Shown: positions 47,694 to 53,118, counted from the stretch's first letter. The stretch is 64,000 nucleotides of DNA from Spartinivicinus marinus (GCF_026309355.1 NZ_JAPJZK010000001.1:744001-808000), one strand, 5' to 3'. Program-made: numbers and translations. Notes: generated from the sequence alone by a model not told the origin.

Positions 47694-48944
47694 TTAGTCA
47701 AGAATAAGTAAGTTTCGGCCAGCCTGTTTTGCCCTATATAAGCATTTGTCAGCTATTGCCAGCATGTCACTGAGCGAGCTATATGTATTATCCGTTACTC
47801 CTATACTAATAGTGATGCCTAAATCGATACCACCAATAGCTAGTTTCTGCTCAGCAACCAAACACCGAAAATTGTCTAGTAATTGCTGACTTTTATCTAT
47901 ATCCAACCCACTTAACAAAACACAAAACTCCTCGCCACCCAATCTAGCTACAGTAAATCGAGCAAACTTCTCTTTTAACACATCCGCTAGTTTTGTTAAT
48001 ACATAGTCTCCAACCTCATGACCATAACTATCATTTATCTGCTTAAAGTGGTCAATATCTAGCATAGCTAAGCTCAGAGGTTTATTATGCTCTACCGCAT
48101 TTTCATATAACTTCTCAGCTACCTGAAAGAAATAGCGCCGGTTAAATAGGCCAGTTAAATAGTCTCTATTAGCAGCATCCTTCACCGCCTCGAACAACTC
48201 CATCTCCTCCAGGTTATGCATTAGCCTACAGTGCAACTCTTCATGATAAAAAGGTTTACGTAAAAAATCATTTGCTCCATTTTTGATAAATTTAGCTGAT
48301 AAGGCTCCACTACCCTCAGCAGACAAACCAATGATAATTAAATTTTTATTATTCTGCTTATGCCGAATATTTTTTACTAGCTCATAGCCATTCATATTAG
48401 GCATATTATAATCGACAACCATCAATCGAATATCGGGTTGCTGCTGCAACATGGCTAAAGCTTCAATGCCATCTTCTGCTTCTAATACTTGATAGAGATG
48501 CTGCTTTAAGGTTTTTCTAATAAAAGCACGAGTGGATTTTGAGTCATCCACTACAAGCACTTTAATAAACTGGTTTTTTTGCAAGCGCGAAATTAACTTA
48601 ACAACATATTCATATGAGTAGCGACTTTCTTTAAGTACATAATCAACAACTCCTTTATCTAACAGAGCTTCTCGCTTCTTATCATTATAAGAGCCCGATA
48701 GCACAATACAGGGAACATTGACAGCAAGCACTTTGTTAACCACTTCGCCATTAGGCGCATCTGGTAAATTCAAGTCCACCACCGCTACTAAATAAGGGGT
48801 ATCAGGCTTACTTAAATATAACTCGGCTTCACTTAATGTTGCTGCAAATACAGGGGACAACTCTTGCTTCGTCTCAAACAAATGCTTAAGCACCTTTAAA
48901 ACCATGGGGCTATCTTCAACAATTAATACAGCATTCCCCTTCAT
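47694..48944 (-). CDS. Two-receiver diguanylate cyclase (REC-REC-GGDEF)
   Basis: The ATG at 48944 gives 416 residues; a GTG at 48956 is an alternative. Two response-regulator receiver domains come first: VLIVEDSPMVLK with phosphosite DLNLPD, then VLVVDDSKSTRAF with VVDYNMPNMNG. The C-terminal GGDEF domain has the active signature RLGGEEF and DYLTGLFNRRYF, so it should make cyclic di-GMP from GTP. The RxxD inhibitory site five residues before GGEEF is not present. The domain order resembles PleD. Its product could act on the PilZ protein at 43683. Confidence 0.92.
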   Translation of the reverse strand: MKGNAVLIVEDSPMVLKVLKHLFETKQELSPVFAATLSEAELYLSKPDTPYLVAVVDLNLPDAPNGEVVNKVLAVNVPCIVLSGSYNDKKREALLDKGVVDYVLKESRYSYEYVVKLISRLQKNQFIKVLVVDDSKSTRAFIRKTLKQHLYQVLEAEDGIEALAMLQQQPDIRLMVVDYNMPNMNGYELVKNIRHKQNNKNLIIIGLSAEGSGALSAKFIKNGANDFLRKPFYHEELHCRLMHNLEEMELFEAVKDAANRDYLTGLFNRRYFFQVAEKLYENAVEHNKPLSLAMLDIDHFKQINDSYGHEVGDYVLTKLADVLKEKFARFTVARLGGEEFCVLLSGLDIDKSQQLLDNFRCLVAEQKLAIGGIDLGITISIGVTDNTYSSLSDMLAIADKCLYRAKQAGRNLLILD

Positions 48945-49011
48945 ACAGACTTCCACTAGTAAGAGGCAGATTTATAAACTGCTATTTATATACAGCAAAG
49001 TACAATGCGTC

Positions 49012-49055
49012 ATTAAGCTAATATGACTGCTAGATAACAGTCATATTAGCTTAAT
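49012..49055. repeat. Perfect 18-bp inverted repeat
   Basis: ATTAAGCTAATATGACTG and its exact complement are separated by 8 bases. It lies 38 bases after the last gene of the kinase/PqqD cluster (minus strand) but has no T-tract, so it may be an mRNA-end stabiliser, a weak terminator or a protein site. Confidence 0.75.
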
Positions 49056-49093
49056 AGTAGAGTATAGCAGTGTATCCTTTCTGCCAGAGCTGG

Positions 49094-50179
49094 CTAAGCT
49101 TTTCCTGTCACTCGCATCCAGGCTTTTCGGGAAAGATGATTCAACAGCAATAAAAGAGGCATTTTCAACCAATGGGAGCGTAAATAGAGTAACTGACTCG
49201 CAATCTGCTTCTGTATCCGTTTTTGCCCTCTAGCCAAAGGCAACATAGCCTCTGGCAATGCCCAGTATTTAATCCGTTGAAAAGTACGGGTGGTGTTTTT
49301 GGGAAGCCCCCTCAACAACAGCTCATTGACTGGGGTAGCAAAAAATTGTTCCAGCAACCACAAAATATCAATCAGTGGCAGCGTTACACCGAGTTTTAAC
49401 GCTCTCTCCTGTAGCTGCAGCCAAAAATCAGGGACATGCTGCTCTCCATAACGCAGTAATTGATCGATATCGTATAAATCTCTAATTCGGTTATGATAAT
49501 CCGCATCGTAGCCCAAATGAACAACAGCATGCAGCACCATATCAGGAAAGCACAAGGTGTTTAATCCTGGCTCTGCCAACGAAATCGATGCCGTTAGTAA
49601 TAAAGATGGATCTGGGTTTAAACGACTAGTGCGAGGTAAAATTCGGTGATGAATATCAACATCATACAGCCGCTCACGATGACGATAAGGGGGTAGCTCA
49701 TGCATCCACTGACGATAGTATGCTTTATCATATTCATTTTGCTTAGCACACTCCCAGCCATTAGCGATCAATAAAGTTTCAATTGCAGGCAAGTCAGCTT
49801 CGTTAAACAACAAATCAACATCTGCTAACAACCGTCCCTCACTAACGGGAATTTTGTGATATAGATAAGCAGCACCTTTTAACAAAGTCATTTGATAGCC
49901 AGCAGGATAAAGTACTCGCCTAAGCCGGTTGATTTCCCAACAAGCATTACGTTGTAAATATTGGGCAAACTGCATGGCATCTTGACACTGCCCTTGAACG
50001 GCTTCAGGTAACTGTTGCCAAACCTGCTGTTGTTGAAAACAGTTGGCTAAAGTAGCTAGCATACCGGCTTGCTTTGCTTGAAACAGCAAAACGTTCCACT
50101 GCTCTACTGAAAACTGCACAACAACTGAAGGCTGCTTCAATACCATCAATAAATAGTGATTTTCAATCTGCTGTTTCAT
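49094..50179 (-). CDS. Nucleotidyltransferase-family protein of the HprK/PqqD cluster
   Basis: The ATG at 50179, preceded by GAGTGG, gives 361 residues; a far upstream start at 50272 would lie deep inside the kinase gene. The sequence fits the NTP_transf_5 group: TLLKGAAYLYHKIPVSEGRLLADVDLLF (quoted in part) with the D-V-D metal pair, then YDVDIHHRIL. Such enzymes are expected to transfer a nucleotide or similar group. It overlaps the kinase gene by 17 bp. The basic, hydrophobic C-terminus (LLLLNHLSRKAWMRV) could touch the membrane. Substrate unknown. Confidence 0.8.
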   Translation of the reverse strand: MKQQIENHYLLMVLKQPSVVVQFSVEQWNVLLFQAKQAGMLATLANCFQQQQVWQQLPEAVQGQCQDAMQFAQYLQRNACWEINRLRRVLYPAGYQMTLLKGAAYLYHKIPVSEGRLLADVDLLFNEADLPAIETLLIANGWECAKQNEYDKAYYRQWMHELPPYRHRERLYDVDIHHRILPRTSRLNPDPSLLLTASISLAEPGLNTLCFPDMVLHAVVHLGYDADYHNRIRDLYDIDQLLRYGEQHVPDFWLQLQERALKLGVTLPLIDILWLLEQFFATPVNELLLRGLPKNTTRTFQRIKYWALPEAMLPLARGQKRIQKQIASQLLYLRSHWLKMPLLLLLNHLSRKAWMRVTGKA

Positions 50180-51128
50180 TAACCACTCGGTTTTTGTTAT
50201 TGACTGGTGGAGAAATGAATTCCTGCTCATAAAGACTAAGTAACAATGGAATAATTGCCCGCAAACTATCAAAATTCAATTCATAGCAATGGCATTGATC
50301 TACTAACTGACGTGCAGCCTGAAACCCTGTAGTCGCTAATAACTTATAATTAAATGCATTATTTGCCAGCCTTAACAAGGCTTGAGATTTTTCTACAGGA
50401 ACTAATACATTATTAGCTCCTGCTTTGTATCGAGGAAAGATTATCCAGCGAGGCCGTGCTTTTTCCTGAGCCTGCTCAATACTTGCTGCAGGTGGCCTAA
50501 AATGAGCAACCATTCCTTTGCGAGTTTTTTCAAATAAAGGACCAATAACCGCTTCTGGACTAAACCGTTTCATCACCTCAATTGAAGTATTTTTAAGTGG
50601 AATTAATTTTGGTAATGGCTGTAATAAACCAGATTCTGGCTCTAGCAAACCAAACTCATCTGATAGCATACGCCAGCCACTCAATGATAATGCCGCACAT
50701 AATGTGCTTTTGCCAGAACCAGGCCAGGCAGGGAATAAAATAGCATGACCATTGCGCTCTACCACTGCAGCATGCAACATTAGATATCGATGGGCATGAG
50801 TAGCAATACACCAGTTGCTGCCCCATTCCAGCATGGGCAATGCATGATCTAGTGGAAATGGTGCCATACCCGGATTGCCATCCGCTTTAAATTCCACCTG
50901 TGGTCGCCACCAACGACGCCATAGCTGTGGGCGTTTTACCTGGATCGCAAAATCTATCAAGTGTGGTTGGGAAAACGTTGGGTAGTGAGCAAATAACCAA
51001 TGCAATTGGGAAACAAGTGTTTTACAGTTTTTTACAGTTAATTGAAATTTAAATGGACCTATTTGATATACTAAACCACTGCGAAGCCGCTCCTGTAGCT
51101 CCATTACTGTTAAATCAGCAATTTTCAT
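50163..51128 (-). CDS. HprK-related kinase A
   Basis: The 321-residue protein has an HPr-kinase-like P-loop, FPAWPGSGKSTLCAAL, and the following LSDEFGLLEP that fits the catalytic strand. It differs from true HPr kinases, and no HPr gene is present. Related kinases modify peptides in some lasso-peptide clusters. It overlaps the PqqD-like gene by 4 bp (start inside that stop) and the nucleotidyltransferase by 17 bp, so all three are made from one message. I recall this combination as the 'HPr-rel-A' system; function undefined. Confidence 0.85.
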   Translation of the reverse strand: MKIADLTVMELQERLRSGLVYQIGPFKFQLTVKNCKTLVSQLHWLFAHYPTFSQPHLIDFAIQVKRPQLWRRWWRPQVEFKADGNPGMAPFPLDHALPMLEWGSNWCIATHAHRYLMLHAAVVERNGHAILFPAWPGSGKSTLCAALSLSGWRMLSDEFGLLEPESGLLQPLPKLIPLKNTSIEVMKRFSPEAVIGPLFEKTRKGMVAHFRPPAASIEQAQEKARPRWIIFPRYKAGANNVLVPVEKSQALLRLANNAFNYKLLATTGFQAARQLVDQCHCYELNFDSLRAIIPLLLSLYEQEFISPPVNNKNRVVNETAD

Positions 51129-51433
51129 GTAAATTCCGGTTCAATTAACCCTAAACAGTCCAAGTTATGGATCAAACTGCTGATTGGTTTAGCAATCTGC
51201 TCTGAAGGCTGCTGCCATTGGTTGGCAAGGCTCATTATTAATTGTTCAGCTGACATTGGCTTTTTAGCTAATAACAATAAAACATCTAACGACATAGTAT
51301 TTAGTAAGTGTGTATCAGCAGATAGGCCATTAAACACAACCGTGTCTTCTCCCCAATCCGCCCATAACAGCTGACCAAGGTCTGCCAAACGCCAGTTGAT
51401 AGCTTTATCTTGTTGTTGGGTAAACGTTCCCAT
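51125..51433 (-). CDS. PqqD-family peptide-binding protein (HPr-rel-A type)
   Basis: The 102 residues resemble the PqqD fold, a small winged-helix that binds leader peptides of ribosomally made natural products: VVFNGLSADTHLLNTMSLDV followed by LLLLAKKPMSAEQLIMSL. It starts the tight trio with the HprK-like kinase. It probably presents a peptide or protein to the kinase and transferase. The most obvious candidate partner is the Tat-signal protein immediately upstream, which is inference from position. Confidence 0.8.
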   Translation of the reverse strand: MGTFTQQQDKAINWRLADLGQLLWADWGEDTVVFNGLSADTHLLNTMSLDVLLLLAKKPMSAEQLIMSLANQWQQPSEQIAKPISSLIHNLDCLGLIEPEFT

Positions 51434-51488
51434 GGCTTATAGGGTAGACCAGATTAGTGTTGCAACCCAAGAGTTACAACACTTTTGT

Positions 51489-52046
51489 TCAGGGGCTTGG
51501 CTGGATAGAAACCCAACAAGAGTTAGTTAAAGGTGAGCCTGTAACGCTTTCAACACTCATTTGATGCGTATTATCAAAGTGAACGAGGACACTTACGCTT
51601 TCAGTGGTAACATCCCCGTCTGCTTGCTCCCACTCCATAAGCTGATCCTGATTGGGCGCTGGTGTTAGTTGATTCATGTCTAACACATAAAGTGTACCAT
51701 CGACCTCAATAACCTCTTGAGTCTCACCATTGGATGTTGGAGTGAAAGTATGCTTGGTACCTATCGCCCTTACCCAGCTAGGGTCTTCACTCATACCATC
51801 CGCCTCAGATACAACAGCATTGGGAGCGGGTATGTTGGCTTCAGCCAGTTTCATATCACAGGTTGCACTGGCTGCTGCTAAAGCTGCACCGCTTCTTAGG
51901 GTTAATATTAATGGCGCCCCAACTGCAGAAGCTTTGAGAAACCTCCGGCGCTGCACCTGCTTGCTTGACAACTGCTCAAGGTCACTGGTCAAGGCTGTTT
52001 GCTGCCCATTCTCAACTGATTGCTTGCTATGCTCACTATTACTCAT
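51489..52046 (-). CDS. Tat-exported protein of unknown function, candidate substrate
   Basis: The 185-residue protein has an N-terminal polar stretch of about 30 residues, a twin-arginine signal (QRRRFLKASAVGAPLILTL) and an Ala-rich cleavage region (AALAAASA). The mature part is acidic, has two cysteines and looks like a small beta domain (EVIEVDGTLYVLDM; SVSVLVHFDNTHQMSVES). It sits 55 bp upstream of the PqqD-like gene in the same direction and likely heads that operon. It may be what the cluster modifies, or a cofactor-bearing exported enzyme. Confidence 0.7.
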   Translation of the reverse strand: MSNSEHSKQSVENGQQTALTSDLEQLSSKQVQRRRFLKASAVGAPLILTLRSGAALAAASATCDMKLAEANIPAPNAVVSEADGMSEDPSWVRAIGTKHTFTPTSNGETQEVIEVDGTLYVLDMNQLTPAPNQDQLMEWEQADGDVTTESVSVLVHFDNTHQMSVESVTGSPLTNSCWVSIQPSP

Positions 52047-52266: not shown

Positions 52267-53118
52267 TCACTTACTTTGGACCACAGCAATAGGCCTACTT
52301 GAGCTAGCCACCCATTCACTCCATGAACCTGGGTATAGTCGAGGCCGCCCGATGCCTGCCAGTTCCATTGCAAAGATATTATGGCAAGCCGTCACGCCAG
52401 AGCCACAATAGCACACCAAATCTGTGATCTCTTTAACTGACAAGATTTTGAATCGCTCAGCTAATTGATGCTTCGGTAAAAAACACCCTGCTGCTGTCAG
52501 GTTTTCTTGAAAAGGTAAGTTAAGTGCACCAGGTATATGGCCTGCTATCGGATCAATTGGTTCCTGCTCCCCTGAATAGCGTATCGCTGCCCTAGCATCA
52601 ACCAAACACCATTTTGGCTGAGACAACTGCTGTAACACTTCATCTGTTGACACCCACATACTGGAATCTGGTTGCCCTACAAAATTACCAGGCGCTTTAC
52701 TAGGGAGTTCTACAGTTGTTGGCAACCCGGCATCCAGCCACGCCTGAAAGCCACCATCTAAAATAGCCACTTGGGTTTTGCCCAACCAAGTCAATAACCA
52801 CCAGAGCCTTACAGCCTGGCTGCTATCTTGTTGATCATATACGACTACTGTTGAGTCTTGGTTAATGCCCCAAGCCTTCAGTCGGTCATTAAGTCTGCTT
52901 GCATCAGGTAACGGATGTCGTCCCGTTTCACCAGATACGACTGGGCCTGACAAATCGCGTTCTAAATCCGCGTAAATAGCACCAGGAATATGTTGCTGAT
53001 TATAAGCTTGCTGGCCTGCATCAGGATCAGCCAGGGAGAAACGACAATCAAAAATACATACGTTATTACTGAGAGAAAGTTGCTGCAATAACCAGTGAGG
53101 TGTTACCAACATATCCAT
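52267..53118 (-). CDS. sseA: Thiosulfate/3-mercaptopyruvate sulfurtransferase (two-domain rhodanese)
   Basis: The 283 residues hold two rhodanese domains. The inactive N-terminal copy includes IFDCRFSLADPDAG and HIPGAIYADLERDL. The C-terminal copy has the catalytic Cys in VCYCGSGVTACHN; the loop CGSGVTA is typical of mercaptopyruvate sulfurtransferases. It transfers sulfur to cyanide or thiols in the cytoplasm. It lies upstream of the Tat-signal gene on the same strand with a 220-bp gap and is probably a separate unit. Confidence 0.9.
   Translation of the reverse strand: MDMLVTPHWLLQQLSLSNNVCIFDCRFSLADPDAGQQAYNQQHIPGAIYADLERDLSGPVVSGETGRHPLPDASRLNDRLKAWGINQDSTVVVYDQQDSSQAVRLWWLLTWLGKTQVAILDGGFQAWLDAGLPTTVELPSKAPGNFVGQPDSSMWVSTDEVLQQLSQPKWCLVDARAAIRYSGEQEPIDPIAGHIPGALNLPFQENLTAAGCFLPKHQLAERFKILSVKEITDLVCYCGSGVTACHNIFAMELAGIGRPRLYPGSWSEWVASSSRPIAVVQSK

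Follow-up and report, generated by a model that had tools for sequence, protein, structure and literature searches.

The locus described here raises the question of what substrate is handled by a PqqD-like protein, an HprK-like kinase and a nucleotidyltransferase that are encoded together in Spartinivicinus marinus. In the 64,000-nucleotide stretch of this genome that was analysed (the window), four genes, all with open reading frames, run head to tail on the minus strand from position 52046 down to 49094. The first gene (51489..52046) encodes a putative Tat-exported precursor of 185 aa and is followed by the genes for a putative leader-binding PqqD-like protein of the RRE type (102 aa, 51125..51433), an HprK-related kinase A (321 aa, 50163..51128) and a nucleotidyltransferase family protein (361 aa from its ATG, 49094..50179; a longer TTG-start form begins at 50272). 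The gap between the Tat gene and the PqqD gene is 55 bp, and the following genes overlap by 4 bp (PqqD and kinase) and 17 bp (kinase and nucleotidyltransferase); the coordinates and descriptions given in the initial annotation were thus right. An inverted repeat read from the sequence directly 3' of the last gene (AAGCTAATATGACTG...CAGTCATATTAGCTT, 49004..49060, minus strand) is a plausible operon end; it lacks a following T-run and was therefore not called a terminator by the scan, and the promoter and terminator scans in general performed no better than on shuffled sequences. Directly 3' of the cluster on the same strand lies a gene for a response regulator with two receiver domains and a GGDEF domain (47694-48956), which is not conserved with the cluster. 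On the 5' side of the Tat gene, also on the minus strand, a rhodanese-type sulfurtransferase gene (52267-53118) is adjacent in 5/5 genomes of the window's family and not elsewhere.

The functional assignments of the three downstream proteins held when they were scored against family models. The kinase reached 367.6 bits with TIGR04352 (cut-off 200), the PqqD-like protein 51.8 bits with TIGR04353 (cut-off 35) and the nucleotidyltransferase 155.6 bits with PF14907 (cut-off 31), and the first two scores therefore place these proteins in the NCBIfam 'HPr-rel-A system'. The catalytic residues are intact, with H119, K140 of the P-loop and D157-E158 invariant among 28 kinase sequences, and K101-G102, D120-x-D122 and D175 invariant in the nucleotidyltransferase. 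Among solved structures in the PDB, the best sequence matches of the kinase were HprK structures (1jb1, E=0.0044), and the best relatives of the PqqD profile were the lasso leader-binding proteins TfuB1 (E=0.0042) and TbiB1 (E=0.14), both weak matches; the nucleotidyltransferase profile had no sequence relative in the PDB. The initial annotation had called this the least understood unit of the window. It did not take into account that the three enzymes already carry names as a set of families. No study of the HPr-rel-A system was found among open papers (the NCBIfam records may note a target protein), and the Tat protein has no family model.

The upstream protein has 185 residues and two cysteines (C63 and C177), as had been described. 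Its leader (Q-RRRFLKASAVGAPLILTLRSGAALA) carries a Tat signal (QRRRFLKASAVGAPLILTLRSGAALA) with a clear twin-arginine motif, RRRFLK, a hydrophobic core and an A-x-A site; the score with the Pfam model TAT_signal was 15.5 bits, which is below the cut-off of 22.7. TatC is encoded in the same genome (240 bits). The mature part starts near AASATC and ends in the tail T-N-S-C177-W-V-S180-I-Q-P-S-P, and the protein matched no family in Pfam or NCBIfam.

To place this arrangement in a wider context, 148 distinct kinase loci were assembled from whole-genome searches, direct regions and one scan of genome contigs, and were deduplicated by kinase sequence. A Tat-leader gene lies directly upstream in 134 of the 148 loci and nearby in 3, is cut off by a contig end in 4 and is absent from 7; its recurrence in more than 130 other loci puts the arrangement far beyond chance. 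PqqD was recognised in 132 of the 148 loci and a PF14907-type nucleotidyltransferase in 135. In three loci (L094, L115 and L126) the Tat gene is divergent or downstream. A leader model, RRRxLLKGxxxAPxxxTLxS[RG]xAxA, was built from 22 upstream ORFs and found a same-strand leader ORF just 5' of the PqqD-kinase pair in 123 loci, to which 11 loci with divergent or filter-missed leaders were added by inspection (L046, L098, L101, L122, L150, L176, L178, L180, L182, L184 and L189). At E<1e-3 the model matched 117 of 10,067 ORFs, and 112 of these 117 are in the upstream position, a count that is partly so by construction because the seeds were taken from upstream positions, the seeds being from 22 loci only. 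A search of 274 genomes of the class with the type A Tat profile (the window's type, see below) gave 19 matches with E-values up to 1.4e-4, and every one of them was at a kinase locus or, for two (G184 and G101), next to an HprK-like gene that scored below the family cut-off. Two plasmid loci, from Vibrio alfacsensis and Sphingomonas parapaucimobilis, were found via the nucleotidyltransferase only and stood outside model building; in both, the upstream gene is annotated 'hypothetical protein' and carries the leader (SRRRFIRSAAISSPILLSIKSPSAWA and SRRMLMLGAVGASTVIAVRPALA, respectively), and the Sphingomonas protein has the tail TCFLSV. The co-occurrence check that had been proposed for the cluster has thus been run and passed: the Tat-leader protein is linked to the kinase, and its profile was not confidently found away from HprK-like genes.

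Clustering of the neighbourhoods beyond the four genes gave no constant fifth gene; XrtA-type genes, sucrose synthase and DegP-type proteases appeared in subsets only. The enzyme set is present in 27 of the 274 sampled genomes of the class and in 61 of 399 in the phylum sample. Three loci (L028, L030 and L067) show another order of the trio, namely nucleotidyltransferase, PqqD and an HprK-like protein below the cut-off, and L067 also encodes, upstream of the reordered trio, a 526-aa protein that may have a signal (KRTVLIGAAVGTATAIW). In a methanotrophic Bathymodiolus endosymbiont (L118:5681-6001 and upstream), the Tat gene is split by a frameshift into two frames, with the tail SCWTSLNPNVP kept.

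The Tat-leader proteins fall into two types. Type A, to which the window protein belongs, consists of the leader, a very variable middle part and a C-terminal tail. Type B consists of the leader, the motif C-x-S-P-S-G-x-x-S-G-N-x-S, the motif TPGYWK and a helical part that contains HxVAALLNA. Neither type matched any family when scanned with Pfam and NCBIfam (type A was represented in the Pfam scan by the window protein only). The predicted structure of the window protein (pLDDT 60) has a beta-rich core at residues 90-167 that is confident and a leader and tail that are not; a PDB fold search with this structure and with a type B structure predicted at pLDDT 73 returned no significant match, and the bodies of the Tat proteins therefore give no functional hint. 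The type follows the kinase clade closely: on a tree of 131 kinases it changes twice, against a mean of 43 with shuffled labels. Both types occur inside Methylococcaceae, Rhodocyclaceae and a further family (f137), so taxonomy alone does not explain the match, which is the pattern that recognition of the Tat protein by the kinase would produce.

Among 34 aligned type A proteins, the sole invariant residues are R33, R34, P45 and T49 in the leader, C63, which is the first mature cysteine, and C177 and S180 in the tail. In a wider set of 53 type A proteins, the pattern [CAS]-[aromatic or similar]-x-S-[hydrophobic] falls within the last 30 residues of 51, against a mean of 1.3 and a maximum of 6 after shuffling; this set was sorted by hand to exclude proteins that are truncated, frameshifted or of type B, and two ambiguous cases (L089 and L105) would be exceptions. 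The strict form SC[WYFL]xS was found in 29 tails of this set and at no earlier point of the mature sequence. In the window protein the candidate modification tail, SCWVSI with the invariant S180, is encoded at 51489..51518 (minus strand), as located by the motif count and the alignment. In other genomes, where C177 is replaced by Ala or Ser (tails AWASI, AYTSL and SAASM), the serine is kept, and the emphasis that the initial annotation had put on the two cysteines should for this reason move to S180. Conservation points to S180 as the core residue that would be modified. Against this, the presence of a conserved cysteine next to the serine could indicate a disulfide or a different chemistry.

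The most telling indication that the tail may be the site of modification comes from two short precursors. Both are complete, comprising 74 aa (L056:9032-9256, end GSACISCNASLI, ...SACISCNASLI) and 82 aa (L173:2685-2933, end ATASCLDSFNGL, ...TASCLDSFNGL), and both consist of leader and tail only, stopping 12-20 residues past the leader, right before PqqD. They offer natural minimal substrates for testing. Type B proteins lack the C-terminal serine motif and have invariant serines, S56 and S60 (L131 numbering), near the mature N-terminus; the acceptor rule is therefore not universal. In more distant relatives, Tat-leader peptides of 57-58 residues were also seen beside an HprK-like gene scoring below the TIGR04352 cut-off or a glycosyltransferase with a C-terminal PqqD-like stretch (L208:1498-1671 and L222:1374-1550), which hints at a wider group of such peptides.

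Because the trio almost always lies beside the Tat gene, the leader is conserved and the tail serine is invariant in one type, the Tat protein is probably the target of the trio, and its role as a client is well supported by these comparisons. The earlier proposal that it is a candidate substrate of a modification system is supported in the same way, with the client link drawn from linkage and type match and the modification itself being what we infer. On balance, we lean towards the four genes forming a single leader-guided protein-tailoring system resembling the B1 protein, kinase and nucleotidyltransferase of lasso peptide clusters. In such a system, the twin-arginine leader would double as an export signal and as a handle gripped by the PqqD-like protein, as judged by analogy with PadeB1. 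The HprK-like kinase would then phosphorylate the precursor, in type A on the tail serine (S180 here), an acceptor suggested by PadeK and ThcoK. The PF14907 nucleotidyltransferase might put a nucleotidyl or sugar group on that phosphate; both the order in which these enzymes would act and the kind of second modification are modelled on PsmK and PsmN. The modified, folded protein would finally be exported by the Tat translocase, after which the leader would be cut off.

The presence of the kinase is associated with that of exosortase. Exosortase (TIGR02602) was found in 25 of 27 genomes with the kinase vs 58 of 247 others (Fisher p=1.2e-12 over 274 genomes of the class, which are partly related) and in 19 of 21 kinase-bearing families. 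Furthermore, several kinase loci adjoin XrtA/PEP-CTERM polysaccharide genes (PrsK, TIGR03027, TIGR03087 and TIGR03108). This co-occurrence, together with the proximity of some loci to XrtA exopolysaccharide genes, suggests that the system may act on the cell surface or within the exopolysaccharide matrix, and it is the first functional clue to what the modified proteins may do. The same data would also fit an explanation in which the Tat protein is merely a co-expressed periplasmic or surface partner and the enzymes act on a sugar, lipid or polysaccharide precursor of an exosortase-associated exopolysaccharide pathway. However, that explanation does not account for a leader core that is conserved beyond the two arginines, for PqqD in 132 of 148 loci or for the near-perfect match between Tat type and kinase clade, and in the window's genome the exosortase gene lies about 340 kb from the cluster; we consider it quite unlikely. 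A dedicated client that is modified at another residue or by other chemistry, for example in the Thr/Ser region of the leader or on the cysteines, with S180 kept for folding or for a later partner, is also unlikely in our judgement, if a somewhat stronger contender. Within type A, T49 and C63 vary no more than S180, and the invariant serines of type B are located elsewhere; yet recognition by Tat and PqqD should by itself keep leader residues conserved, several type A proteins have lost C177 and kept the serine, and the minimal precursors have the serine tail as their C-terminus.

The remaining explanations concern the identity of the trio. A role of the kinase as a genuine HPr kinase/phosphorylase that regulates HPr is highly improbable, even with HprK structures as its best PDB matches and an HPr gene elsewhere in the genome: as had been noted, the cluster holds no HPr, the sole HPr gene of the genome lies more than 430 kb away, the kinase belongs to a separate NCBIfam equivalog (367 bits), and its constant company is PqqD, the nucleotidyltransferase and the Tat protein. 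It is scarcely credible that the three enzymes are left over from, or work for, a lasso-peptide cluster located elsewhere in this genome. The same three kinds of enzyme do occur in lasso clusters (PMC7533575), but trio and Tat gene are conserved in more than 100 loci without a cyclase or protease. For this genome the lasso-cluster reading is refuted by a genome-wide search in which the lasso B2 leader protease family (PF13471) went unmatched, unless a protease has diverged beyond the reach of the model; no Asn-synthetase-like cyclase C was present among the ORFs around the cluster.

The tailoring of a Tat-exported protein, as favoured here, would join leader recognition in the style of RiPPs to Tat export and protein phospho-glycosylation, and it gives a widespread, named and unexplained enzyme set a specific substrate and an acceptor residue to test. 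A broader proposal is put forward tentatively, as one that we think possible and somewhat doubtful. The HPr-rel-A system may be an undescribed leader-guided class in which the Tat signal also serves as the RRE leader and in which folded secreted proteins, and in a few species peptides of 12-20 residues, would acquire a nucleotide or sugar, linked through phosphate to a C-terminal serine, while still in the cytoplasm, then be exported and possibly be joined to exosortase-associated exopolysaccharide.

Comparison with known systems places the cluster as follows. The trio is a member of the HPr-rel-A system (TIGR04352 HprK-related kinase A, TIGR04353 PqqD family peptide chaperone and PF14907), with identical gene order; the family models of that system name the enzymes only, and the Tat-leader protein, its two types and the C-terminal serine tail have no Pfam or NCBIfam model. 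With HPr kinase/phosphorylase (HprK), the kinase shares the P-loop and the catalytic region, whereas the substrate context, the family score and the operon differ. The SynChlorMet cassette shares the association of an HprK-like protein (ScmC, TIGR04249) with a PqqD-like protein; the ScmC model matched the P-loop region of the kinase weakly, at 31 bits, which is below its cut-off of 125. The SynChlorMet cassette contains radical SAM enzymes, and none was found among the neighbours seen of the trio loci.

A further parallel is offered by the tailoring set of lasso peptides (B1; PadeK, ThcoK, SyanK and PsmK; PsmN), which has the same three kinds of enzyme, PsmN being likened by description only. 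Lasso clusters often contain an HPr kinase, PqqD and an uncharacterised nucleotidyltransferase (PMC7533575), and the affinity of the lasso B1 protein for its leader is in the nanomolar range (PMC5067487). The HprK-like kinases of lasso clusters act on the serine at the C-terminus of the precursor, which they phosphorylate by means of a His-Lys-Asp-Asp set; for pseudomycoidin, PsmK is the kinase of the C-terminal Ser, and PsmN attaches one or two hexoses to the resulting phosphoserine, either directly or following nucleotidylation (PMC9266682). The lasso B2 protease and C cyclase are absent here, and the last Asp of the kinase set is replaced by Glu (H119/K140/D157/E158). Moreover, the lasso precursor is a threaded peptide of 20 residues with the serine last, whereas the present precursor is usually a Tat protein of 100-200 residues with the serine 1-16 residues from the end. 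Both systems share the PqqD-like leader binder (predicted here), the kinase residues and a serine at or near the C-terminus of the precursor. If the proposed function is true, the lasso tailoring kinases and nucleotidyltransferases would be one branch of a larger protein-modifying group.
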